Shown here piece by piece: positions 829-21,198 of a stretch of DNA of 21,744 bases (position 1 is its first letter; each line of letters begins with the position of its first letter). This DNA comes from a virus, in the IMG/VR virus record IMGVR_UViG_3300009128_001027, positions 1 to 21,744 of that record. The stretch is one strand, 5' to 3'. The position numbers and the translations under genes were made by a program. A model generated the notes under the pieces. That model was not told the origin of the DNA, ran no database searches, and saw only the letters and a list, made by a program, of their open reading frames with translations.

Positions 829-1488
829 GTGCCCAGCAAGAAACGACGCCAGGACCGCAAGCGAAACAGGGCGCTGAACGACGCTCACAACCGCTGGCGC
901 AAGGGTGTGTATCGGCGGTACGGGGGGCGCTGCCAGGGGTGCGGGGCAACTCACCGCGTTCTGCACGCTCACCACCTGGAGAGCAAGGCCAAGCATCCAG
1001 AGCTGAGGTTCGACCCTGAGAACGGGGTGTGCTTGTGCGAGCGATGCCACTGGTGGTTTCACGAGATCTATGGGCCGAGCACGACCCGCGCGGAGTTCTT
1101 CCGGTTTCAGAACTCGATGGCTGAGCCGTACGCTGGGGAGCCATGGTCAGAGGCTGCGTACGAGTGCCTGCGGCACCAGGACCGCAACGAGGACGAGCAC
1201 CACCGCAGGGTGCGCCAGCTGCCGCTTGGGCCGCGCCAGCGTGAGGTGAGGGCGTACGAGACGCTGCGGGCACAGGCCCAGCAGCGTGGTGAGAAGCGGG
1301 CGCTGAACGTTGATCCTGCAACGGAAGAACGACGGCAGAAGGCCAAGCTGCAGGCCAAGCATCGAGCTGAGAAGCGCAAGCGACGGCGCGCGCGCAAGCG
1401 CCAGGAGCGAGCAGAGCAGGATGAGCGCTGTGAGGTGTTCACCCGCCGGATGCGGGAGCGCTACGAGGAGAGACGGGGAAGGCGCTGA
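829..1488 (+). CDS. HNH family endonuclease with basic C-terminal tail
   Basis: The 219-residue product carries an HNH (beta-beta-alpha-metal) nuclease core near its N-terminus. C35-x2-C38 and C70-x2-C73 form a zinc-binding pair. Between them are LHAHHLE (His 46-49) and N65, and WWFH (75-78) follows, giving the His-Asn-His order. Residues ~100-219 are very rich in Arg, Lys, Glu and Gln and probably form long charged helices that hold nucleic acid. The start is GTG at 829, with GGGAGA shortly before it. HNH proteins of phages act as homing endonucleases, in terminase-linked DNA cleavage or as nicking enzymes. This one is far from the terminase genes and stands alone between the DnaA-box region and the RavA-like cassette, so a freestanding mobile nuclease or a replication nickase are both possible. 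Confidence 0.8.
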   Translation: MPSKKRRQDRKRNRALNDAHNRWRKGVYRRYGGRCQGCGATHRVLHAHHLESKAKHPELRFDPENGVCLCERCHWWFHEIYGPSTTRAEFFRFQNSMAEPYAGEPWSEAAYECLRHQDRNEDEHHRRVRQLPLGPRQREVRAYETLRAQAQQRGEKRALNVDPATEERRQKAKLQAKHRAEKRKRRRARKRQERAEQDERCEVFTRRMRERYEERRGRR

Positions 1489-1496
1489 CCCCCCCC

Positions 1497-1526
1497 TTGC
1501 ACCCGTAACACAAGCCGTGCTAACGT
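1497..1526 (+). promoter_or_regulatory. Sigma-70-like promoter with extended -10 (copy 1)
   Basis: TTGCAC (1497-1502) is followed by an 18-base spacer and TAACGT (1521-1526). The TGC just before the -10 makes it an extended -10. It lies 9 bases after the HNH stop and 48 bases before the next start. Nearly the same promoter recurs at 12479-12508, which supports its being real. Confidence 0.7.
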
Positions 1527-1533
1527 GAGCGCT

Positions 1534-1555
1534 GGTGTGCACCTGAACGCACACC
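1534..1555 (+). promoter_or_regulatory. Leader hairpin before the RavA-like cassette
   Basis: GGTGTGC (1534-1540) pairs perfectly with GCACACC (1549-1555) around an 8-base loop, just after the predicted transcription start and before the GCAGCGAAGGAG ribosome-binding site. The related leader at ~12514-12530 shares TGTGCACC but has a shorter stem. It may stabilise the 5' end of the message. Confidence 0.45.
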
Positions 1556-1573
1556 GCAGCGAAGGAGCATGGC

Positions 1574-2515
1574 ATGACCCCCCGAGACACGAACGAGCTG
1601 ATCACCACCCTGGAGAGCAACGCGGGCCAGCTGCCCGTGCTGGGCTTCATGGTGTACTGGACCCTGCAGCAGGTGCGCGAGCCTGACGCCAAGGCCAAGG
1701 CGGACTGGAAGGACGCGGGCCTGGACGAGGCGTTCACCCCCAAGGCCCCCAGCGACGTGGGCGCGTACAAGCGCGCCAGCCGCACCGCGATCCGCACCAT
1801 GACCGAGGCCACCAGCGGTGTGCAGATCAAGCGCGCTGTCATGAACAGCGAGCGCATCGAGGACGTGGTGTACAGGTACAAGCCGGTGGTCGGGCTGGAC
1901 GACGTGGTGCGGCACAAGTTCACGGAGAGCGCGCGGGTGACCTTCTGGCGTGCCACGGGGAACGCGGACGTGGACGGTGACGCCAGCGACGCAGCCGCCC
2001 AGGCGGTGCTGCAGCAGTACGGGCACCACCGCGGGCACGTGACGACCCACGACGGCACCCTGTGCGTGGGCGAGGCTGTCAAGCGCATGCTGGGGGGCGT
2101 GGCGCTCCGCAGCACGGGTGGGATCTACTTCATCCCCAGCGAGCGTGTGGACGAGCTGGAGGCCCTGCAGAGCGTGGTGGAGCGCTGGGGTGACAGCGAG
2201 CTGTACATGGTCCCCCTGTACGACACCAGCGAGGCCCGCAGGGGCGTCAAGGCGTCAGCCACGGCGAGCTTCAGGGCTGAGCTGGAGCGCGTGCGCAGCG
2301 AGGCGAGCGCGTACCGCGAGCGGCTGGAGGACGCGGACGAGGGCAACCCCCAGGCAGCGACCATCGCGCAGCGGCTGGAGGTGCTGCTGGACATCGAGGG
2401 GCGCGGGGAGGTGTTCGCGGACATGCTGGAGCTGAGCCGCGAGGACATGCTGGGCGACCTGGACGAGGTGCGGACCGAGATCAACGCGCTGGTGCAGATG
2501 GCGGGGGGTGAGTGA
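1574..2515 (+). CDS. Unknown protein, first gene of the RavA/ViaA-like cassette (possibly DUF6744-like)
   Basis: The product has 313 residues. I do not recognise it with certainty. The N-terminal part (LGFMVYWTLQQV, later SDVGAYKRASRTA) recalls the phage family DUF6744, but that is a memory-based guess. Residues ~155-185 contain a GGIYFIPSERVDELEAL stretch that looks like a beta-hairpin followed by a helix. The last third (from ~residue 220) is strongly helical and charged, probably coiled coil, and is a candidate contact with the ATPase. The start ATG follows GCAGCGAAGGAG with good spacing. It is the first gene after a clear promoter, and its stop is one base from the ATG of the AAA+ gene. 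The tight coupling suggests that the three products work together. No catalytic motif is visible; an adaptor or substrate role is inference. Confidence 0.7.
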   Translation: MTPRDTNELITTLESNAGQLPVLGFMVYWTLQQVREPDAKAKADWKDAGLDEAFTPKAPSDVGAYKRASRTAIRTMTEATSGVQIKRAVMNSERIEDVVYRYKPVVGLDDVVRHKFTESARVTFWRATGNADVDGDASDAAAQAVLQQYGHHRGHVTTHDGTLCVGEAVKRMLGGVALRSTGGIYFIPSERVDELEALQSVVERWGDSELYMVPLYDTSEARRGVKASATASFRAELERVRSEASAYRERLEDADEGNPQAATIAQRLEVLLDIEGRGEVFADMLELSREDMLGDLDEVRTEINALVQMAGGE

Positions 2516-2516
2516 C

Positions 2517-3647
2517 ATGGCGACCGCACGCAAGATCAAGGCGCAGAGCGCTCACGAGGCGCTGACCCAGCTGGTGGACGAGCTGAACGCGAGCGTGCTG
2601 GAGCGCGCTGGGGTGGTGCAGCCCATGGTGGCCGCGCTGATCGCCCAGGAACACGTGCTGCTGCTGGGGCTCCCTGGTACGGCCAAGTCCATGATCGCCC
2701 GCAAGCTGGCCGAGGCGCTCAGCGGTACGTACTTCGAGTTGCTGCTGGGGAAGTTCACGGTGCCGGAGGAGGTGTGGGGCCCCGTGAGCGTGAGCGGGCT
2801 GCAGCAGGACAGGTACGAGCGGGTGGGCGCGGGCAAGATGCAGGAGGCGCAGTACGTGGTGCTGGACGAGATTTTCAAGAGCAGCAGCGCCCTGCTCAAC
2901 TCGTTCCTGGCAGCGATCAACGAGCGGATCTACCACGACGGCACCAGGGGCCCCGTGAGGCTGCCCCTGGAGATGGTGGTGGCAGCCAGCAACGAGCTGC
3001 CCCAGGAGGAGGGGCTGGAGGCGCTGTACGACCGATTCCTGGTGCGGATCGAGGTGAAGCCCCTGCGCGAGGACGCATCGTTCGAGGCGCTGCTGCAGCG
3101 CCCCCCGTGCAAGCGGCTCAGCAAGGTCACCGAGCAGCAGCTGGCGGACGCTCGCCAGCAGGCGGCGGCGCTCCCCCTGTCCAAGGGGCTCACCAGCACG
3201 CTGGCCAGCCTGCGTCGCAAGGTGCAGCAGAAGGGCGTGTACGTCAGCGACCGGCGCTGGCTGCAGGCGCTCGGGTACCTGCGCGCGGTGGCGTGGCTCC
3301 AGGGGTTCGCTGAGGTGAGTGATGACCAGCTGGAGGCCCTGAAGGACTGCCTGTGGGATGCCCCCGAGCAGCGGGCTGAGATCGTCGGGTGCATCATGAG
3401 TGTGGCCAACCCCCAGGGCATGAAGGCCCAGGAGCTGGCGGACGCAGCTGAGGCCAAGCGCCAGGAGGTGATCAACGGCGGTTCCAGCGAGCAGCTGGTG
3501 ATGGCGGGTGTGGAGCTGAAGCGGCTCGCGGCTGAGATCGCCAAGCTGGAGCAGAGCAACCCCAGCGTGGCCAAGGCGCACCAGCAGGTGGTGTCCACGC
3601 GGAAGGAGATCCTGCGGGCTCTGAACAAGCTGGCGGGGGCGGACTGA
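2517..3647 (+). CDS. RavA/MoxR-family AAA+ ATPase
   Basis: This 376-residue AAA+ ATPase has Walker A GLPGTAKS (51-58), Walker B VVLDE (114-118), sensor-1 Asn in AASNELP (about 159) and an arginine finger in LYDRFLVR (173). GKFTVPEEVWGPVS (78-91) is typical of the RavA branch of the MoxR clade. The C-terminal third has a helical lid and a long Ala/Glu/Lys-rich helix. MoxR proteins are ring-forming chaperone-like ATPases that act with a VWA partner to remodel or insert cofactors into target complexes; RavA is shorter here than the cellular protein (roughly 500 residues). ATG 2517 is preferred to the upstream GTG at 2508 because it follows GGGGTGAG at a workable distance. The gene ends in TGATG, overlapping the VWA gene start, so the two are translationally coupled. 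Confidence 0.9.
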   Translation: MATARKIKAQSAHEALTQLVDELNASVLERAGVVQPMVAALIAQEHVLLLGLPGTAKSMIARKLAEALSGTYFELLLGKFTVPEEVWGPVSVSGLQQDRYERVGAGKMQEAQYVVLDEIFKSSSALLNSFLAAINERIYHDGTRGPVRLPLEMVVAASNELPQEEGLEALYDRFLVRIEVKPLREDASFEALLQRPPCKRLSKVTEQQLADARQQAAALPLSKGLTSTLASLRRKVQQKGVYVSDRRWLQALGYLRAVAWLQGFAEVSDDQLEALKDCLWDAPEQRAEIVGCIMSVANPQGMKAQELADAAEAKRQEVINGGSSEQLVMAGVELKRLAAEIAKLEQSNPSVAKAHQQVVSTRKEILRALNKLAGAD

Positions 3648-5191
3648 TGCCCCGCACCATCAATCCCGCACACGCGGCCAAGGTCCAGAAGGCCCGCAAG
3701 CGGATCACGGGCGCCAAGGCCCGCGCGCTGCGCATGGCCGAGCAGCTGGGGGACGGGCTCCGCTGGCGCGACAACCTCACCCACAAGGTAGACGGCTGGG
3801 CGCGGTATATCTGGCGCGAGCGCGGGCACAGTGACGAGCAGTGGGTGGCCGAGGGGCAGGACCGCAAGATCCCAGGGTGGGAGCAGTTCAGCCGCGAGAT
3901 GTTCGCTGACCTGCTGGCTGGCCAGGGCAAGCTCCAGGAGCTGCCCGAGGACGATCAGCCCGCGAGCGCTGGCTGGGCCCGCGAGGCGCACCGCCAGCTG
4001 GACGAGGTGGGCGAGTACCAGCAGCTGCGCGAGGTGTGCAACGACGATCCCGAATGGGCCGCGGTAGGCGCGCGCAGGGTGGCCAAGGCGATCCGGCGCA
4101 AGCTGCAGCCAGAGTGCACCACTGACCCCGAGGCTCTGCGCGAGCTGGCCGAGGCGGTGCGTGAGAGAGGCGAGCGCCCCACAGCCAACCACCTGGAGAG
4201 CATGGCCCAGGAGCAGCAGGAGGCCGCTGAGCGCGATGCAGAGCGCCAGGGCGAGCAAGGGGCTGCCGTGAGGGTTGCCGTGCGTGAGGCAGCGGCTGAG
4301 GCGGCTCAGACGGTGGAGCAGGGGCAGCAGCTCCTGGGCATGCTGGGCCATGGCATGGGCACCGCTGAGCTGGGCCGCAGCGACGAGGGCATGGAGCTGA
4401 AGCGTCAGGTGGCCGAGCTGCTCACCACCCGCCCTGACCTGCAGGAGATCGTGGAGCTGGCTGGACGGCTGCAGGCCGCTGGCGGGCAGGCCCGCATGGA
4501 GAAGATCCGGACCCACGCTGGCGCGGTGGTGGACGTGACGCGCGGTGCTGACGTGGCGCGCCTGTGCCCTGGTGAGCTGGCGCGGCTGGCCACCCCTGAG
4601 CTGGCGCCAACCCTCATGCGTGACATCGTGGAGCGTCAGGCAGCGTGTTACGAAATGGAGGGCGAGCAGCAGGCTGACCGCGGCCCGATCGTGCTGCTGG
4701 TGGACTGCAGCAGCTCCATGGCTGGGCAGCGCCAGAGCTGGGCCATGGGCGCGGTGCTGGCCGTGTACAACATGGCCCGCAGGGACAAGCGCGTGTTGGC
4801 AATCGGCCACTACAACAGCAGCCTGACGGATTTCGGATTCTACGCCCCGCCCGCGTACGGGAACGGCGCGGTGCTGGACGAGCTGATGGTGGGTGCCAGC
4901 GGGGGCACGAACCTGGGCGCTGCCATGCGCGAGTGTGAGGAGCACGTGGACCGCGAGCGCGAGCTGGACGCGGCTGACTACCTCGTGATCACCGATGGCC
5001 AGGACAGCCGCCCCAGCTCGCTGGAGCAGGTGACGGCCGCTGGCCGCAGCGTGTGGGGGGTGTTCATCCAATGCGGCGCGCCGGACTGGGCTGGTGACCT
5101 GGACGGGTACTGTGAGATCAACGATGCGCAGGTGCGGACGGGGGACGATTCCGAGGCCGCCAAGCTGATGCTGAGCGGGGCGCTGAGCTAA
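3647..5191 (+). CDS. ViaA-like von Willebrand factor A (VWA) domain protein
   Basis: The 514-residue protein has a helical N-terminal two thirds and a C-terminal VWA domain. The metal-ion-dependent adhesion site is complete: DCSSSM (D353, S355, S357), the Thr of GGTN (421) and the Asp of ITDGQD (450). The linker before it (CPGELARLATPEL and RDIVERQAACYEMEG) closely recalls ViaA, the partner of RavA. A Gln/Glu/Ala-rich helix spans about 185-230. In cells, such proteins bind the MoxR ATPase and direct it to substrates through the metal site. Its start overlaps the ATPase stop by one base. The next promoter begins right after its stop, so the cassette ends here. What it acts on in a phage is not known to me. 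Confidence 0.88.
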   Translation: MPRTINPAHAAKVQKARKRITGAKARALRMAEQLGDGLRWRDNLTHKVDGWARYIWRERGHSDEQWVAEGQDRKIPGWEQFSREMFADLLAGQGKLQELPEDDQPASAGWAREAHRQLDEVGEYQQLREVCNDDPEWAAVGARRVAKAIRRKLQPECTTDPEALRELAEAVRERGERPTANHLESMAQEQQEAAERDAERQGEQGAAVRVAVREAAAEAAQTVEQGQQLLGMLGHGMGTAELGRSDEGMELKRQVAELLTTRPDLQEIVELAGRLQAAGGQARMEKIRTHAGAVVDVTRGADVARLCPGELARLATPELAPTLMRDIVERQAACYEMEGEQQADRGPIVLLVDCSSSMAGQRQSWAMGAVLAVYNMARRDKRVLAIGHYNSSLTDFGFYAPPAYGNGAVLDELMVGASGGTNLGAAMRECEEHVDRERELDAADYLVITDGQDSRPSSLEQVTAAGRSVWGVFIQCGAPDWAGDLDGYCEINDAQVRTGDDSEAAKLMLSGALS

Positions 5192-5192
5192 C

Positions 5193-5231
5193 TTGACGGC
5201 TGCACGCCCCTTGATATATCCCTGGTATACC
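5193..5231 (+). promoter_or_regulatory. Promoter and operator-like palindrome before the HTH regulator
   Basis: TTGACG (5193-5198), 16 bases, then TATATC (5215-5220) form a plausible sigma-70 promoter in an unusually AT-rich patch. The perfect palindrome GGTATACC (5224-5231) covers the expected transcription start. The next gene encodes a small HTH protein, so autorepression at this dyad is a reasonable inference. Confidence 0.55.
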
Positions 5232-5253
5232 TGTGACACGGGAGACGAATTTC

Positions 5254-5565
5254 ATGGTTGGAAAAAAGACAGCTGGACCGAAACCGCACGCTGGACCGCA
5301 CCGCGTGCATATCGAGCGCACCACCACCGAGCGCCTGGGGTTCGTGTACGACCTGCGCAAGCGCGTGTTCAGAGCGCTCCAGAAACAGGGGCTCACCCTG
5401 CACGACCTGGGCAAGGCCCTGGGGTGCTCGCACATGACGGCGGGCCGCAGGCTCCACGCACGCACCATGGAGGAGCCCGAGGCTCGCGCCATCTGTGAGC
5501 TGGTGGGGCTCGATCTGGACGAGATGATGAAACCCCCGACAGGGGCTGACGCGGGCAGCAGGTAG
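5254..5565 (+). CDS. Small helix-turn-helix DNA-binding regulator
   Basis: The product has 103 residues. After a basic, Pro/His-rich N-terminus, the region QGLTLHDLGKALGCSHMTAGRRL (about residues 45-67) has the spacing and residues of a Cro/CI (XRE)-type helix-turn-helix, followed by EARAICELVGLDLDEMM, the usual supporting helix. ATG 5254 is chosen over the in-frame GTG 5233 because GGGAGA lies at the right distance and because the predicted transcription start falls near 5227. It is the first gene of the long replication and recombination operon and has its own promoter with a palindrome on the start point, so it probably regulates this operon. It is too short for a CI-type repressor with a cleavage domain, so a Cro-like role is likelier. 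Confidence 0.72.
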   Translation: MVGKKTAGPKPHAGPHRVHIERTTTERLGFVYDLRKRVFRALQKQGLTLHDLGKALGCSHMTAGRRLHARTMEEPEARAICELVGLDLDEMMKPPTGADAGSR

Positions 5566-5600
5566 GCTGGCCGCAATACGAACAGCGAAGGAGACACCCC

Positions 5601-6848
5601 GTGACCCTGCACAACCTCAACCTGGGGGGCGACCCCCGCACCATCCAGGTGCTGAGCTACAGCCAGATCAGCACGTTCATCAGCTGCCCGTACAAGTGGC
5701 TGGTGAGCTACGTGCTGGGGGTGACGAGCCCCCCGCCCCGCCCGCTGCCCATGGCGTACGGTTCCCTGATACACACCCTGCGCGAGGAGCTGAGCCGCGA
5801 GCGCACCAGCCCCCCCGAGGTGGAGCGCCTGATCGGTGAGTGGATGGGTGGCTGGCTCAGCGAGGCCCAGGACGCAGCTGACGACCACCTGAGCCCCTTC
5901 AGCGATCCGCGCCTGCTGGAGGACACCAGCACGCTCCACGAGCTGGGCAACTGCGCGCGCTGGTGGGCTGACACGTACCAGCTGATGCGACGCGAGAACC
6001 CCCTCACGTACATCGCCCTGGAGCAGCCCGTGCTGGTGCGCATGCGCGACAGCCTGGGGCGCCCCCGCGGTGACCTGTGGGTGCAGGCCATCCTGGACGG
6101 GCTGGGGATCAACGATTTCGGTGAGGTGGAGCTGGAGGAGGTGAAGACCAGCGGGGAGCGCTCGCTGCCGAAGTATCAGACCAAGCTGGACGGCGACCTG
6201 CAGGTGCCGCTGTACGCGCGCATCCTGAGATACGTGCTACCGCCCAACCTCACCCCCCGCAGGGCGGTGTACGAGTGCGCGCGGCGCGCCATGCCCAAGC
6301 GCCCCAAGGTGGTGGGCAAGGGAACGGAGAAGCAGCCGTACAGGCTCAGCACGGCCAAGTGTGACACCGACAGGCGCACCGCCGAGGAAGTGATCGTGGG
6401 CAACGGGCTGGACCTGAACGCGCACGTGGGGTACCTCGCCAACCTCCCAGGCACCGAGGCGTTCCTGGCGCGGTTCAGCTACGACGTGCCCCACGCTCAG
6501 GCGCTGGAGAGCGAGCGCACGGTGGTCCAGGTGGCGCGGGCCATGCGCGCGGTGCGGCGCAATCCCTTGCTGGCGTGGCGGAACACCCTGCAGTGCAGCA
6601 ACTGGGGTTGCCAGTACAAGCGGGTCTGCTGGGCCCGTGGGCGTACCCCGCTCACCGCTCAGACGTACCTGGACGCGGGGTACACCACACGCCCCCAGCG
6701 CACCATCACTGACACAGAAAAGCCGTTTCTGGTGGAGGCTGGCGCTGCTGAGCAGCTGCGGGCCGCGGGTGTGTTCTGCACCACTGCTCAGGAGCTGGTG
6801 AACCACGAGATGCTGTACGGCGACGTACCCGACAGCACGCCCTTCTGA
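5601..6848 (+). CDS. PD-(D/E)XK nuclease, RecB/AddB/Cas4-like, with Fe-S-type cysteines
   Basis: This 415-residue protein opens with LSYSQISTFISCPYKW (18-33), the usual start of RecB-family nuclease domains, and has MAYGSLIHTL (51-60). The metal site is LDG (D166) plus ELEEVKTSG (E180-V-K182), and QVPLY (201-205) is the QxxxY motif. C29 and the late cluster C332, C337 and C343 (in CSNWGCQYKRVC) match the four cysteines that hold a 4Fe-4S cluster in AddB and Cas4 proteins. It probably trims DNA ends during recombination or replication. The start is GTG 5601 after GCGAAGGAG. Its position upstream of the Sak4-like and SSB-like genes suggests that it supplies single strands for annealing, as an exonuclease does in phage recombination modules. 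A Cas4-like role in adaptation is unlikely without CRISPR genes. Confidence 0.83.
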   Translation: MTLHNLNLGGDPRTIQVLSYSQISTFISCPYKWLVSYVLGVTSPPPRPLPMAYGSLIHTLREELSRERTSPPEVERLIGEWMGGWLSEAQDAADDHLSPFSDPRLLEDTSTLHELGNCARWWADTYQLMRRENPLTYIALEQPVLVRMRDSLGRPRGDLWVQAILDGLGINDFGEVELEEVKTSGERSLPKYQTKLDGDLQVPLYARILRYVLPPNLTPRRAVYECARRAMPKRPKVVGKGTEKQPYRLSTAKCDTDRRTAEEVIVGNGLDLNAHVGYLANLPGTEAFLARFSYDVPHAQALESERTVVQVARAMRAVRRNPLLAWRNTLQCSNWGCQYKRVCWARGRTPLTAQTYLDAGYTTRPQRTITDTEKPFLVEAGAAEQLRAAGVFCTTAQELVNHEMLYGDVPDSTPF

Positions 6849-6864: not shown

Positions 6865-7266
6865 ATGGAACAGACCACCATCGGGTGGCACGAGGAGCGC
6901 CTGACCAGGATTCAGGATCTGTATCAGCGCGTGGACGAGCTGGACAAGGAACGCAAGGCCCTGCAGCGCCAGTGGGATGAGCGGCTCGCTGAGGAGCGCG
7001 CCGAGCTGAAGCGGCTGATCGAGAGCCCCGTTCCCAGCCTCAGCGATGAGCGCAAGGGCCTGCTGCAGAACATCCAGCAGCAGCACCAGGACATCGATCA
7101 GACCCTGGTGGGCAAGAAGACCGAGATGCACGAGATCCGCGCCACCCTGAAGGAGGCCAAGGCCCGACTGCGGGCGCTGATCGAGGATGACGGACAGCTG
7201 GACATCACCGAGGGCATGGAGCCCCCTGGTGAGGACGGCGACAACAGCGAAGGAGACGACGAGTGA
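6865..7266 (+). CDS. Coiled-coil protein of unknown function
   Basis: The 133 residues are almost all helix-forming. Heptad-like spacing runs from about residue 8 to 60 and again from 65 to 105 (for example VDELDKERKALQRQWDERL), broken by a Pro-Val-Pro hinge near residue 55. The last 25 residues are strongly acidic (Asp, Glu and Gly). I do not recognise a family. It starts with ATG after GGAGAGA, and its stop overlaps the GTG start of the Sak4-like gene, so it belongs to the recombination operon. It may be a structural partner of the neighbouring nuclease or ATPase; nothing in it points to catalysis. Confidence 0.72.
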   Translation: MEQTTIGWHEERLTRIQDLYQRVDELDKERKALQRQWDERLAEERAELKRLIESPVPSLSDERKGLLQNIQQQHQDIDQTLVGKKTEMHEIRATLKEAKARLRALIEDDGQLDITEGMEPPGEDGDNSEGDDE

Positions 7267-8072
7267 CCATCCAATTCATGAGGGCTGACGAGATGCCCAT
7301 GGCACGGCTGGCCAAGCTGCTGGAGCACGGCCGCAGCGGCGTGGGCAAGACATGGAGCAGCGCGCGGGCAACGCGCGACCCCGAGCGCACCGTGATCGCG
7401 CTCACCGAGAGCCAGGGAGCGCTCCAGATCCGCCAGAGCAACCCCCACGCCACGATCGTCCCGATCAGGGAGTTCGAGGACTGGCGCGATTTCGTGCGGG
7501 CCATGACGGCACCCCACCCCGACTGCAGGGGTGAGGGCTGCGACGATTGCGCCGGTACGGGCGTCAAGGGCCGGACCAAGTGGGATGCGGTGGTGATGGA
7601 CTCGATCACCGACCTGCAGCGGTTCATCAAGGTCCACGTGGCCACGGACAAGAGCCGCCCTGCGGGCAACCGCAAGCTGCGCGAGGGCGTGCTGGCGATG
7701 GACGACTGGCAGGTGGTGGGCAGCTACCTGGAGCGCGCCCTGCGCGCCCTGCGGGACATGCCCTACCACGTGGTGTGCACCGCCATCACGGACGAGACGA
7801 TCAGCGAGGACGGCAGCATCACCGCGCGCCCCGCCCTGCAGGGGTACGCCAAGACGGTGGTGGGCCAGTACTTCAACGCGATCTGCCACCTGCAGACCCG
7901 CAGGGGCGAGGGCGACGAGGTGATCCGTGAGGGCACGTTCGACAGCCCAGGCGACGCCGTGCTGTGCAAGCCCAGCCCCGCGCTGGAGGCGGTGGAACCC
8001 GTGGACGTGGCCAGCTGGCTGGAGCGGCTGAGCACGTACACCAGCGAGGACGAGGACGGGGGTGAGCTGTGA
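7263..8072 (+). CDS. Sak4-like RecA-fold ATPase (phage single-strand annealing/recombination)
   Basis: The product has 269 residues. Walker A is GRSGVGKT (23-30), and WDAVVMDSITDL (about 107-118) holds Walker B. ALTES near residue 47 and the short RecA-like core without DNA-polymerising N-terminal domain fit the Sak4/AAA_24 group of phage recombinases, which anneal single strands together with an SSB. A small Cys insertion lies at 88-100; CDDCAGTG is an exact CxxCxGxG, the DnaJ-type zinc motif, with C88 as a possible third ligand. The start is GTG 7263 after GCGAAGGAG; it overlaps the coiled-coil gene by 4 bases. An SSB-like gene lies one gene downstream, as in known Sak4 modules. A general AAA+ nucleotide-binding protein is the main alternative. 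Confidence 0.78.
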   Translation: MTIQFMRADEMPMARLAKLLEHGRSGVGKTWSSARATRDPERTVIALTESQGALQIRQSNPHATIVPIREFEDWRDFVRAMTAPHPDCRGEGCDDCAGTGVKGRTKWDAVVMDSITDLQRFIKVHVATDKSRPAGNRKLREGVLAMDDWQVVGSYLERALRALRDMPYHVVCTAITDETISEDGSITARPALQGYAKTVVGQYFNAICHLQTRRGEGDEVIREGTFDSPGDAVLCKPSPALEAVEPVDVASWLERLSTYTSEDEDGGEL

Positions 8073-8994: not shown

Positions 8995-9477
8995 GTGCTG
9001 GGCAGCACGAACCTGAGCCTGTTCGCACCCCCCGCTGGTGGCAGCACTGGCGGGGGGACCGCGAGCACGACCAAGCCTGACGAGGCTGCTGCTGTGCGGG
9101 TGGTGTTCGACCACTGGCAGCAGGCCATGGGCAAGCCCAGAGCCAAGCTGACCGCTGACAGGGCGCGCAAGGTGCGCGCGAGGCTGCGCGAGGGGTACAA
9201 CGTGCAGGAGATCCTGCAGGCGGTGCAGGGCTGCGCCGCGAGCCCCTTCCACCGCGGCGAGAACGACCGTGGCACCGAGTACGTGGACCTGACCCTGATC
9301 TGCCGGTCGGGGTCCAAGCTGGAACAGTTCATTGAGATGGCTCCTGAGGAGCCCGCAGAAGGCACTGAGGCGCCCGTCCTTCGCGACGGGGTGTACCAGG
9401 AGCCCGAGCGGTCGGGCGAGGTGTCCGATGCGCTCCAGCGGGCGGAGAGGCGCCTGAGAGACAAGCTGGGGGAGTGA
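8995..9477 (+). CDS. Phage replication protein (O-like C-terminal type)
   Basis: The product has 160 residues. After a flexible Gly/Ser/Thr-rich N-terminus comes VFDHWQQAMGKPRAKLTADR, then RLREGYNVQEILQAVQGCAA and SPFHRGENDRGTEYVDLTLI. This order (F.xW....G.P.AKLT, a three-helix segment, then SPFH.G.NDRG...DL..I) is the conserved region I associate with phage replication-initiation proteins downstream of helicase-interaction domains. GTG 8995 is the first start after the SSB-like stop; the ribosome-binding site is weak, so translation may depend on coupling. With the DnaC-like gene two places downstream it could form an O/P-type pair that loads the host replicative helicase. It is shorter than lambda O and lacks an obvious DNA-binding N-terminal domain. 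Confidence 0.68.
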   Translation: MLGSTNLSLFAPPAGGSTGGGTASTTKPDEAAAVRVVFDHWQQAMGKPRAKLTADRARKVRARLREGYNVQEILQAVQGCAASPFHRGENDRGTEYVDLTLICRSGSKLEQFIEMAPEEPAEGTEAPVLRDGVYQEPERSGEVSDALQRAERRLRDKLGE

Positions 9478-9499: not shown

Positions 9500-9814
9500 A
9501 TGGTACCGAGGACACACACACAGCGCATCGCAGCCCTGGAGCACGAGCTGGAGCAGCTGCTCGCGAGCAACCCCCTGATCGAGCTGGACGACGTGCACCT
9601 GCCCACGCTGCTGCAGGAGCTGCGTGAGCAGCAGGCCAGCACGCACCAGCGGCTGACCGAGCTGGAGGAGCGGCTGGGCGCGAGCGAGTACGACGTGTTC
9701 GAGCTGTTCGTGCTCGAGGCCACGCTGCGCGGGCGCCACGCCAGCGGCTGGGAGTGGGTGCCCAGCACCGTGCAGTGGGTGGAGGCTGAGGTGCAGGAGC
9801 AGAACGGTGACTGA
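9500..9814 (+). CDS. Small coiled-coil protein
   Basis: The 104-residue product is helical throughout. It has heptads from about residue 8 (RIAALEHELEQLLASN) to 60 (RLTELEERLG) and a C-terminal Trp-rich segment with GWEWVPSTVQWVEAEV. No family is recognised. ATG 9500 follows the strong ribosome-binding site GGAGGAGG. The gene overlaps the helicase-loader start by 8 bases, so the two are probably made together. It could be an adaptor of the loader, but this is context only. Confidence 0.68.
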   Translation: MVPRTHTQRIAALEHELEQLLASNPLIELDDVHLPTLLQELREQQASTHQRLTELEERLGASEYDVFELFVLEATLRGRHASGWEWVPSTVQWVEAEVQEQNGD

Positions 9815-10484
9815 CCTGCACCACCTCACCGAGGACGAGCTGCACGCGTGGCGACGCTCACACCGTGAGCCCGCGGACGAGGTGCGGTACGTGCGCGAGC
9901 TGATGCGGCGCTCCAGCAGCAAGGCAGCTCTGACCCGCTGCGGGGTGCCAGAGCGCTGGAGAGCGCACGGCATACTGGAGGTGGAGCCCCACCCCCAGCA
10001 GCGAGGAACGCACACGCTGCTGAGTGAGATCCGCCCTGGGTCGCGTGGCCTGTACCTGTACGGGCGCGTGGGCACTGGCAAGAGCAGACTCACAGCCGCC
10101 CTGGTGGTCACCTTGGCCACCGAGGGGGTAAGCGCTCGCTGGCTCCGCTGGCAGCAGCTGCTCACGAACCAGCGCGAGCGCATGGACGGCGACCGCACCG
10201 CCACCGACCTGCTGGATGTGGCCCGCTCGTGTACCGTGCTGGTGCTGGACGACCTGGGGGCGGGCAAGCCCACCCCCTGGAGCGTGGGCATCGCTGAGGA
10301 GGTGCTGGACGCGCGCCTGAACAGCTCCCTGACCACGATCATCACCTCGAACCTCTGGACCGCTGGCGACCCCAGGCGCGTGGCCACCCTGACGGGTGTC
10401 ATGAGCGCCCGCGTCACCAGCCGCGTGGCCGAGCTGTGCCAGCCGTACAGGCTGGACGGCACGGACCTACGCGTGCGAGGCTGA
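9807..10484 (+). CDS. DnaC/IstB-like AAA+ helicase loader
   Basis: The product has 225 residues. It contains Walker A GRVGTGKS (86-93), Walker B VLVLDDLG (144-151), the sensor-1 Asn in TIITSN (about 182) and an arginine-rich box ARVTSRV (201-207) with the arginine finger, in the order and spacing of DnaC-type loaders. The N-terminal 75 residues would contact the helicase. These ATPases open the replicative helicase ring and place it on single-stranded DNA. No helicase or primase gene is visible in the window, so the phage probably loads the host DnaB, or its helicase lies elsewhere. The GTG start at 9807 overlaps the coiled-coil gene. A structured 117-base gap follows. Confidence 0.82.
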   Translation: MTDLHHLTEDELHAWRRSHREPADEVRYVRELMRRSSSKAALTRCGVPERWRAHGILEVEPHPQQRGTHTLLSEIRPGSRGLYLYGRVGTGKSRLTAALVVTLATEGVSARWLRWQQLLTNQRERMDGDRTATDLLDVARSCTVLVLDDLGAGKPTPWSVGIAEEVLDARLNSSLTTIITSNLWTAGDPRRVATLTGVMSARVTSRVAELCQPYRLDGTDLRVRG

Positions 10485-15014: not shown

Positions 15015-16510
15015 CTCACCGGCAGCTGGTGCGGGGCGGGGTGGACGTTGCCAAGCTGAGCAAGGGCACCCGCGCCATGCTGGACGCTCTGGCTGAGCTG
15101 GAGGCGCTGAACCCCCTGGCGCGGTACTGGCTGGACCCAGCTGGTGCGGGTGGCATGTCCCCAGGGCAGCACCGGTTCCACGTGGACCCCGCACGCCAGC
15201 GGTTCCTGCGGTGCGCGAACAAGGTGGGCAAGACGTACGCGCTCAGCGCTGAGGTGTGGGCGTTCCTGCTGGGTCAGCACCCGTTCAGGCGCGAGCCCCA
15301 GCCCCCGCTCACGGTGCTGTACGTGGTGAGCGACCTGGACAGCAGCTACGCGGACGACGTGTGCAAGCGGCTCAGGGAGCTGGAGCCGCACGGGGTGCTG
15401 CACCCCAGCTGCTCGTACGACGCTGTGCGGGGGTACTACGTCAGGGGGCGGCGGGGCATCCTGCTGGGCAACGGGTCGCAGGTGATCTTTCGGTCGGGTC
15501 AGCAGGACGGTGGAGCGCTCGCGGGGATCAGCGCTGACGTGGTGGTGATCAACGAGCCGCCCAAGCGAGCCCGCTGGGGCGAGATCATGCGCGCGGCGGC
15601 TGAGAGCAATGCCCCCGTGATCATGGGCTTCACCCCGATCGATCAGCGTGGCAGCTCGGTGCTGGACTCCCTGGGGTGGCTGCGCGGTCTGGTGGAGGCG
15701 AGCGACAGCCAGTGGAGTCAGACGGTGATCCGGCTCACGCTCGAGGAGGTGCCCCACCGCAGCGCTGAGGACATCGCTGCCCAGGTGGCGGACGTGCCCC
15801 CGTGGGAGCGCCCCCAGCGCGTGGACGGGGCGTGGGAGGGCGTCAGCATCGATCGGCTGTTTGAGGGATTCGTGGACCAGCACGTGCGGGAGGGGGGTTG
15901 CGTGGTGGGCGCTGGCGATCTGCCTGAGCACGAGGTGCACGTGGGGATCGCTCTGGACCACGGTGAGAGCCCAGGCAACGAGGTGTGTCTGCTGTATCTG
16001 TACTGGCGCGACGAGGGGGACAGACGGCAGCGGGTGATGGTGCTGGACGAGTACGTGAGCAAGGGGCGTACCACGGTGGCGATGGATGCCCAGGCAGTGG
16101 CGGACATGCTACAGCGGTACGGGCTGGGCGTGCTACACGTGGATCGTGCGCATGGCGACGTGAACACCATGGGGAAGTCACAGCTGAGCACGGTGAACGA
16201 GGCGCTAGCTGAGGCGTTCGCTGACCTGGAGCGGGTGCCCAGGGAGCAGGCGCCGATCACGATCCTGCGGCCACGCAAGGGCCCAGGGAGTGTGATGTAC
16301 GGGTGCCGCGTGCTGAACCACGCGTTTCTGCAGGGGCGGCTGGTGGTGCACGAGCGGTGCGGGGTGCTGATACACGCTCTGCGCAACTGGCAGGGCGGGA
16401 AGTCGGGTGTAGACGGTGACCTATCGCATACGATCGATGCTCTGCGGTACGGGTGCGTGGAGCTGCTGGACATCGTGGACCGGAGCACACCCGAGATCAT
16501 GGTGAGCTGA
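15011..16510 (+). CDS. terL: Terminase large subunit
   Basis: The product has 499 residues, in the normal size range. The N-terminal ATPase has Walker A ANKVGKT (69-75), Walker B VVVINE (177-182) and coupling motif GFTPI (206-210). The C-terminal RNase H-like nuclease shows D316 (VGIALDHGES), D378 (VLHVDRAHGD) and D476 (LSHTIDALRY). This motor translocates DNA into the prohead and cuts it. The usual Walker B Asp is Asn here (N181), while the catalytic Glu is kept; this is worth checking. The GTG start at 15011 overlaps the tiny ORF; a weak GGGGGAG lies before it. TerS upstream and portal downstream agree with the call. Confidence 0.92.
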   Translation: MTHRQLVRGGVDVAKLSKGTRAMLDALAELEALNPLARYWLDPAGAGGMSPGQHRFHVDPARQRFLRCANKVGKTYALSAEVWAFLLGQHPFRREPQPPLTVLYVVSDLDSSYADDVCKRLRELEPHGVLHPSCSYDAVRGYYVRGRRGILLGNGSQVIFRSGQQDGGALAGISADVVVINEPPKRARWGEIMRAAAESNAPVIMGFTPIDQRGSSVLDSLGWLRGLVEASDSQWSQTVIRLTLEEVPHRSAEDIAAQVADVPPWERPQRVDGAWEGVSIDRLFEGFVDQHVREGGCVVGAGDLPEHEVHVGIALDHGESPGNEVCLLYLYWRDEGDRRQRVMVLDEYVSKGRTTVAMDAQAVADMLQRYGLGVLHVDRAHGDVNTMGKSQLSTVNEALAEAFADLERVPREQAPITILRPRKGPGSVMYGCRVLNHAFLQGRLVVHERCGVLIHALRNWQGGKSGVDGDLSHTIDALRYGCVELLDIVDRSTPEIMVS

Positions 16511-16521
16511 GGAGGCGAAGG

Positions 16522-17268
16522 ATGACGACAGGCAGCGCGATTGCGTGGACGGATCACACGTGGAACCCCTGGCAGGGCTGCACCCGCACGGGGTTCGAGG
16601 GGTGCAGGCACTGCTACATGTACCGTGAGAAACGGCGGTGGGGGCAGGAGCCTAGCGAGGTGGTGCGTAGCAGCTCCAGCACGTTCAGAAAGCCCCTGAG
16701 CCCGCGGTGGGAGGCTGGCAGCATGGTGTTCACCAGCAGCTGGACGGACTTCTGCCACCGTGCTGCGGACCCCTGGCGCGAGGAGGCGCGGGGGATCATG
16801 GAGCAGCGCACGGATCTGGTGTTCCAGGTGCTGACCAAGCGGGGCGGTAGGCTGGACCTGTGCCTGCCCCCCGAGTGGCTGGAGCGAAACCCCCATGTGT
16901 GGGTGGGGCACAGCGCGAGCACGCAGGAGGAGCTGGATCTGGCCGTGCGGTACCTGGAGAGCAGCAGGGCGCGGTGCGTGTTCCTGAGCCTGGAGCCCCT
17001 GCTGGAGCGGGTGGACGTGGGGATCGCTCTGGAGCGCCTGCAGCGAGGCGGGCGTGAGCTGTGGGTGATCGTGGGCAGTGAGTCAGGGCTGCACCGAAGG
17101 CACACCGCTGACGCGTGGGTGCAGGACGTGGTGGGGCGCTGTGCTGGGCGCTGCTCTGTGTTCGTGAAGCAGCTGGACAGGGAGGGTCGCCCTGTGCTGG
17201 AGGACGACCCGAGCTGGCCGAGCTGGGCGGTACAGCAGCTGCCCGTGGAGTGGCTTGCGTGGAGGTGA
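16522..17268 (+). CDS. Gp37/Gp68 (DUF5131) family protein
   Basis: The product has 248 residues. The start, SAIAWTDHTWNPWQGC followed by GFEGCRHCY (C20, C28, C31), is the signature of the phage Gp37/Gp68 family; FTSSWTDFCH, FQVLTKR and LSLEPLLERVD are further family-type segments. The Cys triad and barrel-like pattern resemble radical-SAM enzymes, but biochemical function is not established to my knowledge. ATG 16522 follows GGAGGCGAAGG. The gene lies between terL and portal, an unusual place, and starts a cluster of small genes that separates them. It may modify nucleic acid or act as an accessory (moron) gene. Confidence 0.8.
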   Translation: MTTGSAIAWTDHTWNPWQGCTRTGFEGCRHCYMYREKRRWGQEPSEVVRSSSSTFRKPLSPRWEAGSMVFTSSWTDFCHRAADPWREEARGIMEQRTDLVFQVLTKRGGRLDLCLPPEWLERNPHVWVGHSASTQEELDLAVRYLESSRARCVFLSLEPLLERVDVGIALERLQRGGRELWVIVGSESGLHRRHTADAWVQDVVGRCAGRCSVFVKQLDREGRPVLEDDPSWPSWAVQQLPVEWLAWR

Positions 17269-20287: not shown

Positions 20288-20569
20288 GTGTCGTACAAGC
20301 GACTGGTGGGCGCCCCTCGCGGCTCTGGGCATGGGGCTGCTGGGGTGTCCACCACCCCCCGCAGGTGCATGTGCCAGCGGAGCGACAACAGCGGGCTGAG
20401 CAGCACCGTGATCAAGGCGGTGCGTGACGAGAGATCCGCCGCGTGGCGGTGCCCCAGCTGCGGCCAGATCGTGGCCACTGACGAGGAGGCGGTGCGGGGT
20501 GACCCTGTGCCGCTGCTGGAGCGTGAGCTGGCCTGGAAATACACCACCACCACCAACGGCACCGGCTGA
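20288..20569 (+). CDS. Small zinc-ribbon protein
   Basis: The product has 93 residues. C27-x-C29 and C55-x2-C58 (in AAWRCPSCGQIVATDEEAV) give a probable zinc ribbon. The N-terminus SYKRLVGAP is nearly repeated at 20938 (TYKRLVGAA), an apparent partial duplication. GTG 20288 is the first start after the scaffold stop. No function is known; it occupies the place where the major capsid gene is expected. Confidence 0.6.
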   Translation: MSYKRLVGAPRGSGHGAAGVSTTPRRCMCQRSDNSGLSSTVIKAVRDERSAAWRCPSCGQIVATDEEAVRGDPVPLLERELAWKYTTTTNGTG

Positions 20570-20584
20570 GCGAAGGAGGACATC

Positions 20585-20941
20585 ATGGGCGAGACCCCAG
20601 GAGAGGCAGCAGCACGCACGATGGACGCCATGGCGCGCGCTGTGGCGGACATGGAGCTGGCGCGGTGCTCGCACTGCGTGGGGCGCGGTCAGCTGGCGTA
20701 CGATCCCCACCTGCACCGGGTGGTGTGCCAGGGATGCGGGTTCCCGTACGACCTGCGTGAGACGGCGCTGCTGCTGCAGGAGCCGCTGGAGGCTGGGGGC
20801 AACGCTCGGCCAGGGATGCTGTGCAGCGAGATCCCAGGGCACAGCAAGCGGCGGTGCAAGGGCGTGCTGGAGCTTCACCTGAGCCTGACGGCTGACGCGG
20901 TGCGCTGCCCGAGCTGTGGGGTGGCCTGGAGGTTCCTGTGA
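20585..20941 (+). CDS. Protein with two zinc ribbons
   Basis: The product has 118 residues. Cys pairs C28-x2-C31 and C48-x2-C51 form one ribbon, and C80, C91 and C108-x2-C111 a second. CSHCVGRG (28-35) is an exact CxxCxGxG motif, as in the Sak4-like and TerS proteins. GAAGGAGG precedes the ATG. The frame continues open for 69 codons past its TGA, which is followed by C, so a read-through extension is possible. Related functions cannot be inferred from sequence alone. Confidence 0.65.
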   Translation: MGETPGEAAARTMDAMARAVADMELARCSHCVGRGQLAYDPHLHRVVCQGCGFPYDLRETALLLQEPLEAGGNARPGMLCSEIPGHSKRRCKGVLELHLSLTADAVRCPSCGVAWRFL

Positions 20942-21198
20942 CGTACAAGCGGCTGGTGGGAGCGGCTCCAGGGCGCTCGCCTCGCGGGCGCGTACAAGGA
21001 CGTGGTGCGCCGCGCGCCCGCGAGGAGCAGGTGGGCCGGAACCGCTACACCCTGGCGGACAGGGACGCCCGTGAAGTCCATCGAGCGAGCCGGACGGAAA
21101 GAGATGGACGGAGCGGCGAGACCGGGAAGGAAGGGGGGGCGGAAAAAGTAGCTGCCCCCATTGGCCCGAGTAGCTGCCCCCATTGGCCGATCCAGTAG
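20938..21198 (+). CDS. Doubtful ORF or frame-disrupted gene
   Basis: GTG 20938 overlaps the previous stop. The first ten codons (TYKRLVGAA) resemble the start of the zinc-ribbon protein at 20288. After that, codon bias weakens: the frame becomes Arg/Gly/Glu-rich with AGG, CGA and GAA codons, unlike the neighbours. Meanwhile the frame that continues the upstream gene past its TGA shows better third-position GC and a sensible basic C-terminus (PVKSIERAGRKEMDG then a Lys/Arg tail) ending at TAG 21149-21151. A frameshift at about 20975-20990, an error in the sequence, or a chance ORF are all possible. The stop at 21196-21198 lies inside the repeat region. Confidence 0.35.
   Translation: MTYKRLVGAAPGRSPRGRVQGRGAPRAREEQVGRNRYTLADRDAREVHRASRTERDGRSGETGKEGGAEKVAAPIGPSSCPHWPIQ
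21148..21188. repeat. Tandem direct repeat, 19-bp unit, period 22
   Basis: GTAGCTGCCCCCATTGGCC occurs exactly at 21148-21166 and 21170-21188, with three spacer bases. Similar words recur nearby (GTAG at 21196). Two copies in front of a promoter fit binding sites for one protein. They do not form a palindrome. They also mark the change from the late genes to a region with different gene content. Confidence 0.6.

Follow-up and report, generated by a model that had tools for sequence, protein, structure and literature searches.

MoxR rings with VWA-domain partner proteins remodel a bound client (PMC7159879), and NorQD is an example of such MoxR/VWA remodelling (PMC13036017). Pairs of this type are already known in viruses, namely in Acidianus two-tailed virus (ATV; PMC4124505), in Bacillus phage 0305phi8-36 (PMC2147016), in jumbo phages (PMC7824862) and as the CobS/CobT-like pairs of other tailed viruses (PMC8651126), so that the view expressed in a preliminary description of the locus analysed here, that a RavA-ViaA-type pair is not a phage function, does not hold. 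Explanations of the viral pairs have so far been given singly, with roles as helpers of a B12 chelatase or as chaperones of tails or of metalloproteins. Here we analyse a MoxR-VWA pair that is encoded together with a third protein, DUF6744, in the IMG/VR virus contig IMGVR_UViG_3300009128_001027 (21,744 bases, ~68% G+C, terminase genes present; this whole stretch is referred to below as the window). The DUF6744-MoxR-VWA triad is not local to the source virus: it recurs in numerous unrelated phages, archaeal viruses and plasmids.

The triad occupies positions 1574-5191 and consists of three co-directional genes that are coupled by overlaps or one-base gaps and preceded by a short leader:

1489..1573, + strand: intergenic leader, with an AAGGAG ribosome site and a 7-bp inverted repeat
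1574..2515, + strand: DUF6744 gene (gene 1), 313 aa, with the AAGGAG ribosome site 5' of the start
2508..3647, + strand: gene for a RavA-like AAA+ ATPase of the MoxR type that lacks a LARA domain, 379 aa from GTG 2508 or 376 aa from ATG 2517
3647..5191, + strand: gene for the VWA protein, 514 aa, with a helical N-terminal region and a C-terminal VWA domain with a complete metal ion-dependent adhesion site (MIDAS)

For the MoxR gene, the ATG at 2517, which a single base separates from the TGA that ends gene 1, is a likelier start than the GTG at 2508 given in the list of open reading frames (ORFs). The stop codon of this gene is overlapped by the ATG of the VWA gene (TGATG). The tightly coupled RavA/ViaA-like pair with a complete metal site that had been described from the sequence is thus present.

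In profile searches, all three proteins score above the cut-offs of Pfam families. Gene 1, which had been reported as unrecognised, encodes a member of DUF6744 (PF20529; E-value 3.9e-15, 56 bits with a cut-off of 27, model positions 17-308 of 314). This is a family of unknown function; the literature searched, which took in few subscription papers, contains neither a mention of DUF6744 by name nor a description of what it does. The AlphaFold2 model of the window protein (predicted local distance difference test score, pLDDT, 93.3; predicted template modelling score, pTM, 0.85) combines an N-terminal alpha/beta module with another alpha/beta part of smaller size and a long stretch of helices at the C terminus. 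A comparison of this model with the PDB yielded no match reaching E 1e-3 (the best has E 9e-3, with poor TM-scores), so that DUF6744 represents a confidently predicted fold without a confident match among solved structures. The weak fold matches to RnlA (probability 0.96, 84 columns) and CENP-N (0.72) are faint alpha/beta hints and were not used. The strong matches among viral structures are unnamed proteins, one of which was confirmed here as a family member. The best kept motif of the family is GG-[VIM]-Y-F-[VI]-P.

The product of the second gene belongs to bpMoxR (PF20030; E 1.2e-52, 178 bits, cut-off 27), with additional matches to AAA_lid_8 (E 1.5e-15) and, also above the cut-off, AAA_5. 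It displays the features of the MoxR clade, i.e., Walker A and B, the downstream Asn and Arg, and the lid; the Walker A motif (GLPGTAKS), the DE of Walker B and the downstream Asn/Arg are invariant or almost so in 11 relatives. The nearest solved structure is RavA (3nbx, E 2.6e-48), over RavA residues 11-289 only, and the NCBIfam RavA model NF010054 gives 193 bits, with an equivalog cut-off of 681. The third protein matches VWA_2 (E 4.7e-6, 27.6 bits, cut-off 27) and, with 57 bits (E 1.7e-15), the NCBIfam ViaA model NF008230, for which the equivalog cut-off is 500. Across 38 relatives, the MIDAS residues DxSxS (353-357), T421 and D450 do not vary. The structural model of this protein (pLDDT 84) matches VWA domains, including that of NorD (E 3e-5) in the solved structures of NorQD and, in midasin, the MIDAS domain. 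No TPR or membrane region was found in the triad proteins, and no beta-propeller either, by Pfam match in the three proteins or in the secondary structure of the DUF6744 and VWA models.

Scans of viral sequences with single window proteins as queries gave no matches, so that alignments were needed as queries. A MoxR profile search of IMG/VR identified 80 loci, 66 of them distinct at 90% identity. Each of the 66 contains a VWA gene, and 52 contain DUF6744 (49 initially, two more with a wider profile and one at the opposite contig end), a fraction that does not tell how often viral MoxR genes in general have DUF6744, because the search patterns were built from DUF6744-linked members. None of 8008 reversed ORFs matched the DUF6744 profile. 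The suggestion of the preliminary description that the third gene goes with the pair is supported, and other phages do keep the three genes together, the point by which that description could have been refuted. The gene order is mostly DUF6744-MoxR-VWA (30 loci) or MoxR-VWA-DUF6744 (13). Over 61 complete triads, the distance matrices of the proteins correlate (r 0.66 for DUF6744-MoxR, 0.79 for DUF6744-VWA and 0.71 for the third pair), and these values were reached in 0 of 2000 permutations; such co-divergence can partly reflect the shared phylogeny of the elements.

The triad is also found in Moorella phage MTATph1 and in Archaeoglobales contigs. A tblastn search started with the MTATph1 DUF6744 protein identifies matches in 20 plasmids from Brevibacillus, Alicyclobacillus, Streptomyces, Nocardia, Rubrobacter, Pseudanabaena and Subdoligranulum (i.e., Bacillota, Actinomycetota and Cyanobacteriota). 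By coordinates or annotation, a MoxR gene lies within ~3 kb of DUF6744 in 19 of these, and a VWA gene is also present in all nine of the 19 that were inspected; the twentieth plasmid carries a frame-split MoxR gene 44 kb away.

DUF6744 also accompanies AAA+/VWA pairs of other types. A search based on DUF6744 itself yielded 10 viral loci, five of which contain bpMoxR and VWA; in another (L019), a MoxR gene lies near the end of the available stretch. The remaining four (L021-L024) encode a different AAA+-like protein, assigned by motifs plus weak or no Pfam scores, along with a DUF2201 metallopeptidase-VWA protein, the pair type of jumbo phages (PMC7824862). In the haloarchaeal virus HVTV-1, gp25 is a DUF6744 protein (profile E 6.5e-27; a BFVD structure match with E 1e-18 was attributed to gp25 on the basis of its length, 383 aa), with relatives in HVTV-2, HCTV-1, HCTV-5 and HCTV-16, and the CobS/GvpN-like AAA protein gp59 and the VWA protein gp57 are encoded ~15 kb from it. 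Pairs like the latter have been interpreted as CobST (PMC8651126); the presence of DUF6744 and AAA/VWA genes in one genome (9815-10966 and 25607-29463) offers an alternative reading to cobaltochelatase. No recognisable DUF6744 was found in cyanophage P-SSM2, T4 or jumbo phage Atu_ph07. Thus, distinct AAA+/VWA pairs have the same third protein, and a protein that tracks different pairs across phages, archaeal viruses and mobilizable plasmids provides a testable handle on function.

Downstream of the triad, the window contains genes of replication and recombination in the same direction:

5601..6848, + strand: PD-(D/E)XK RecB-like exonuclease gene (PF12705, E 2.8e-17; PHROG exonuclease, E 4.5e-27)
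7263..8072, + strand: Sak4-like single-stranded DNA-annealing protein gene (PHROG 124, E 1e-20)
8995..9477, + strand: replication-initiation (O/DnaD-like) protein gene (phrog_16167, E 6e-25)
9807..10484, + strand: DnaC-like helicase loader gene, further downstream (phrog_50, E 1.7e-24)

The order triad-exonuclease-Sak4-initiator is shared by seven viral contigs (the window, L074, L033, L044, L032, L050 and L091), and in four more loci the triad is accompanied by the exonuclease and Sak4, with the order either unchanged or altered. The identity of DUF6744 to the window copy is only 15-25%, which implies that this order is either old or repeatedly re-formed. Among 57 viral triad loci, the exonuclease is a neighbour in 13, Sak4 in 11 and a replication-initiation protein in eight. 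A search based on Sak4, with a two-row alignment, found only four loci, too few for a background rate of the triad beside Sak4: one is the L074 contig, another (L122) has an upstream VWA gene, and the other two stop 2-4 kb before Sak4 on its upstream side. In plasmids, dnaN is located immediately upstream in Alicyclobacillus, SNF2/DEAD helicase genes lie near several copies, and DUF6094 genes are also among the neighbours. Among the targets that had been offered for the pair, namely the replisome, the envelope and head assembly, this gene context favours replication-recombination over the other two; head assembly is further opposed by carriage on mobilizable plasmids. Carriage by both plasmids and phages narrows the candidate functions to common needs, above all DNA replication, recombination or the evasion of host defences.

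These observations are best explained by the hypothesis that the triad is a MoxR-VWA remodelling machine with DUF6744 as a dedicated substrate or adaptor subunit, which would act on the replication-recombination nucleoprotein of the element; we assign this reading a probability of roughly 0.45. By analogy with its family, the MoxR protein would form an AAA+ ring, on which the VWA protein, as in NorQD and midasin, would dock and hold a partner via the MIDAS metal site. DUF6744 could then be the third subunit that the pair works on or through, either a substrate or an adaptor that presents one. The ultimate target would most likely be the exonuclease, Sak4 annealase, initiator, helicase loader or sliding clamp of the element itself, and the machine might power loading, release or turnover of the nucleoprotein. 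What is shown here comprises the identities of the genes, the integrity of the catalytic and metal sites, the joint conservation and co-divergence of the three proteins, and the gene context; formation of a complex, the choice of the protein that contacts the target and the identity of the target are inferred. Several observations weigh against this proposal. A tested replication or recombination neighbour is present in only 26 of the 57 viral triad loci, within the available stretch, and in phages not only function but also timing determines which genes are neighbours. The window DUF6744 protein is acidic, with an isoelectric point of 4.9 (family median 6.0), so that direct DNA binding is not indicated. 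Finally, one MoxR clade (nine rows, Shimodaira-Hasegawa-like approximate likelihood ratio test 98, in a quick tree) lacks DUF6744, so that not every such pair depends on it. As for fusion of DUF6744 to DNA-binding domains, the C-terminal extensions in L059 (5448-7193) and L068 (5922-7193) show only sub-threshold winged-helix/MarR similarity, and no such fusion is claimed.

In six of the nine members of the clade without DUF6744, a gene for a small CxxC...CxxC protein is located directly upstream of MoxR. This protein, of ~190-230 aa with two CxxC motifs, is encoded in L049 (7399-7983), L053, L056, L080, L092 and L093. RNA polymerase beta-like genes (checked against Pfam in L076) occur in nine contigs with MoxR-VWA and without DUF6744, and reverse-transcriptase-like genes (identified by eye) likewise occur in nine. 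In Aphanizomenon phage CL131, an LPD29 protein (758-1600) occupies the place of DUF6744, in the order LPD29-MoxR-VWA-dnaN. A broader and more tentative version of the hypothesis is that an undescribed machine, common to large plasmids, tailed phages and the viruses of archaea, loads, strips or recycles the replication-recombination proteins of the element, with DUF6744 as an exchangeable adaptor, the place of which might be taken by LPD29 in CL131 and perhaps, in one clade of large phages, by the zinc-ribbon-like CxxC protein.

A different, rather doubtful possibility is that the triad is a conflict module, in which the MoxR-VWA pair would restrain DUF6744 as a sensor or effector and free it against host defences or competing elements. 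The ATPase belongs to bpMoxR, a Pfam family named for the MoxR-vWA ternary systems of multicellular bacteria, for which a role in conflict has been proposed (PMC7159879); both plasmids and phages are carriers; and LPD29, which takes the position of DUF6744 in CL131, is a domain originally identified in the polyvalent proteins that phages and conjugative elements encode. However, no effector domain, peptidase, propeller or membrane segment was recognised in the three proteins, PADLOC gave no match above noise (only IetA, E 0.012 over 60 residues), and the triad stands ahead of replication-recombination genes. A chaperone for metal or cofactor insertion of the CobST/NorQD/CoxDE type, with DUF6744 as a docking subunit, which would mature one of the element's metalloenzymes (ribonucleotide reductase, for example, or an enzyme that depends on B12), appears unlikely. 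Several studied MoxR-VWA pairs insert metal or activate enzymes, the viral CobS/CobT pairs have been interpreted as cobaltochelatase helpers (PMC8651126), and a ribonucleotide reductase gene closely precedes DUF6744 in MTATph1 and is found in its vicinity in HVTV-1; yet such a neighbour is found in only 4 of 84 loci, the conserved neighbours include no metalloenzyme, no ribonucleotide reductase was recognised in the window, and the window proteins do not match the CobS/CobT models (NCBIfam, E<0.01).

Virion assembly, for which there is a precedent in ATV p618/p892 (PMC4124505) and a proposal for group 2.2 jumbo phages (PMC7824862), is quite improbable as the role of a triad chaperone. A MOBP relaxase is encoded by two of the carrier plasmids, ABRG53b and pNF1, the latter of which has a conjugative coupling protein too, so that virion assembly alone cannot be the function; moreover, the window triad has early replication genes as neighbours, and at least ~9 kb separate it from those for terminase and scaffold. 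The least probable explanation is that DUF6744 is functionally unrelated to the pair and linked to it by operon inheritance only. This would accommodate the 15-45 kb between DUF6744 and the AAA+ gene in HVTV-1 and Subdoligranulum, as well as the clade devoid of DUF6744, but the association holds across phyla, gene orders and different AAA+/VWA pairs, and the triad proteins co-diverge.

With regard to expression, the dedicated promoter postulated earlier was not recovered: a scan of 1300-5700 for sigma-70-type promoters found 0 sites, and the best candidate by manual reading, TTGCAC-N18-TAACGT, is poor. An HNH-domain gene (829-1488) on the same strand ends 85 bases 5' of the DUF6744 gene, so that transcription of the triad may start further up. 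The leader contains, at ~1532-1553, the inverted repeat GGTGTGC-N8-GCACACC, a possible operator or RNA hairpin. Just 5' of a small helix-turn-helix gene (5233-5565), the stretch 5205-5232 is AT-rich, which stands out in this high-G+C genome, and contains the palindrome GGTATACC; it might be an autoregulated promoter. Elsewhere in the window, a DUF5131 protein (16453-17265, E 1e-40), member of a phage family without an assigned role, is encoded among the packaging genes, its ORF start overlapping the end of a terminase gene, and two ORFs (20288-20569 and 20938-21198) with a near-identical first peptide (MSYKRLVGAPRG and MTYKRLVGAAPG) form a short repeated segment that adjoins zinc-ribbon-like ORFs.

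Compared with RavA-ViaA of E. coli, the triad has adjacent genes for an AAA+ core that is closest to RavA among solved structures and a VWA protein that is weakly but clearly ViaA-like. However, the match of the ATPase ends at about residue 289-312 of ~498 in RavA, the triple-helical and LARA regions are absent, and the triad includes the third gene and sits on mobile elements. Given scores far under the equivalog cut-offs and the missing RavA domains, membership of the pair in RavA-ViaA was rejected; the two are relatives only. ATV p618/p892 (PMC4124505) are likewise a virus-encoded MoxR ATPase and VWA partner, but that pair is linked to extracellular tail growth and DUF6744 has not been reported for it, whereas the triad is also present on plasmids. 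The CobS/CobT-like pairs of haloarchaeal tailed viruses and cyanophages (PMC8651126) share the AAA+ and VWA genes and, in HVTV-1, DUF6744 (gp25); unlike them, the window proteins have no CobS/CobT model match, and P-SSM2 has no recognisable DUF6744. In 0305phi8-36 (orf66/orf63; PMC2147016) and group 2.2 jumbo phages (PMC7824862), a phage-borne MoxR protein is similarly accompanied by a partner subunit, but a third component is not described; the VWA protein of the latter group contains a metallopeptidase domain as in L021-L024, and DUF6744 was not recognised in the jumbo phage Atu_ph07. No description of the DUF6744-MoxR-VWA triad was found in the phage MoxR/VWA literature searched, within the same scope as above, and as a machine of phages and plasmids it is probably undescribed so far. 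The MoxR-vWA-beta-propeller ternary systems (PMC7159879) resemble the triad in combining a bpMoxR ATPase, above the cut-off here, with a VWA partner and a third conserved gene; in the triad, however, this third gene is DUF6744, and the context is that of phage and plasmid replication and recombination.

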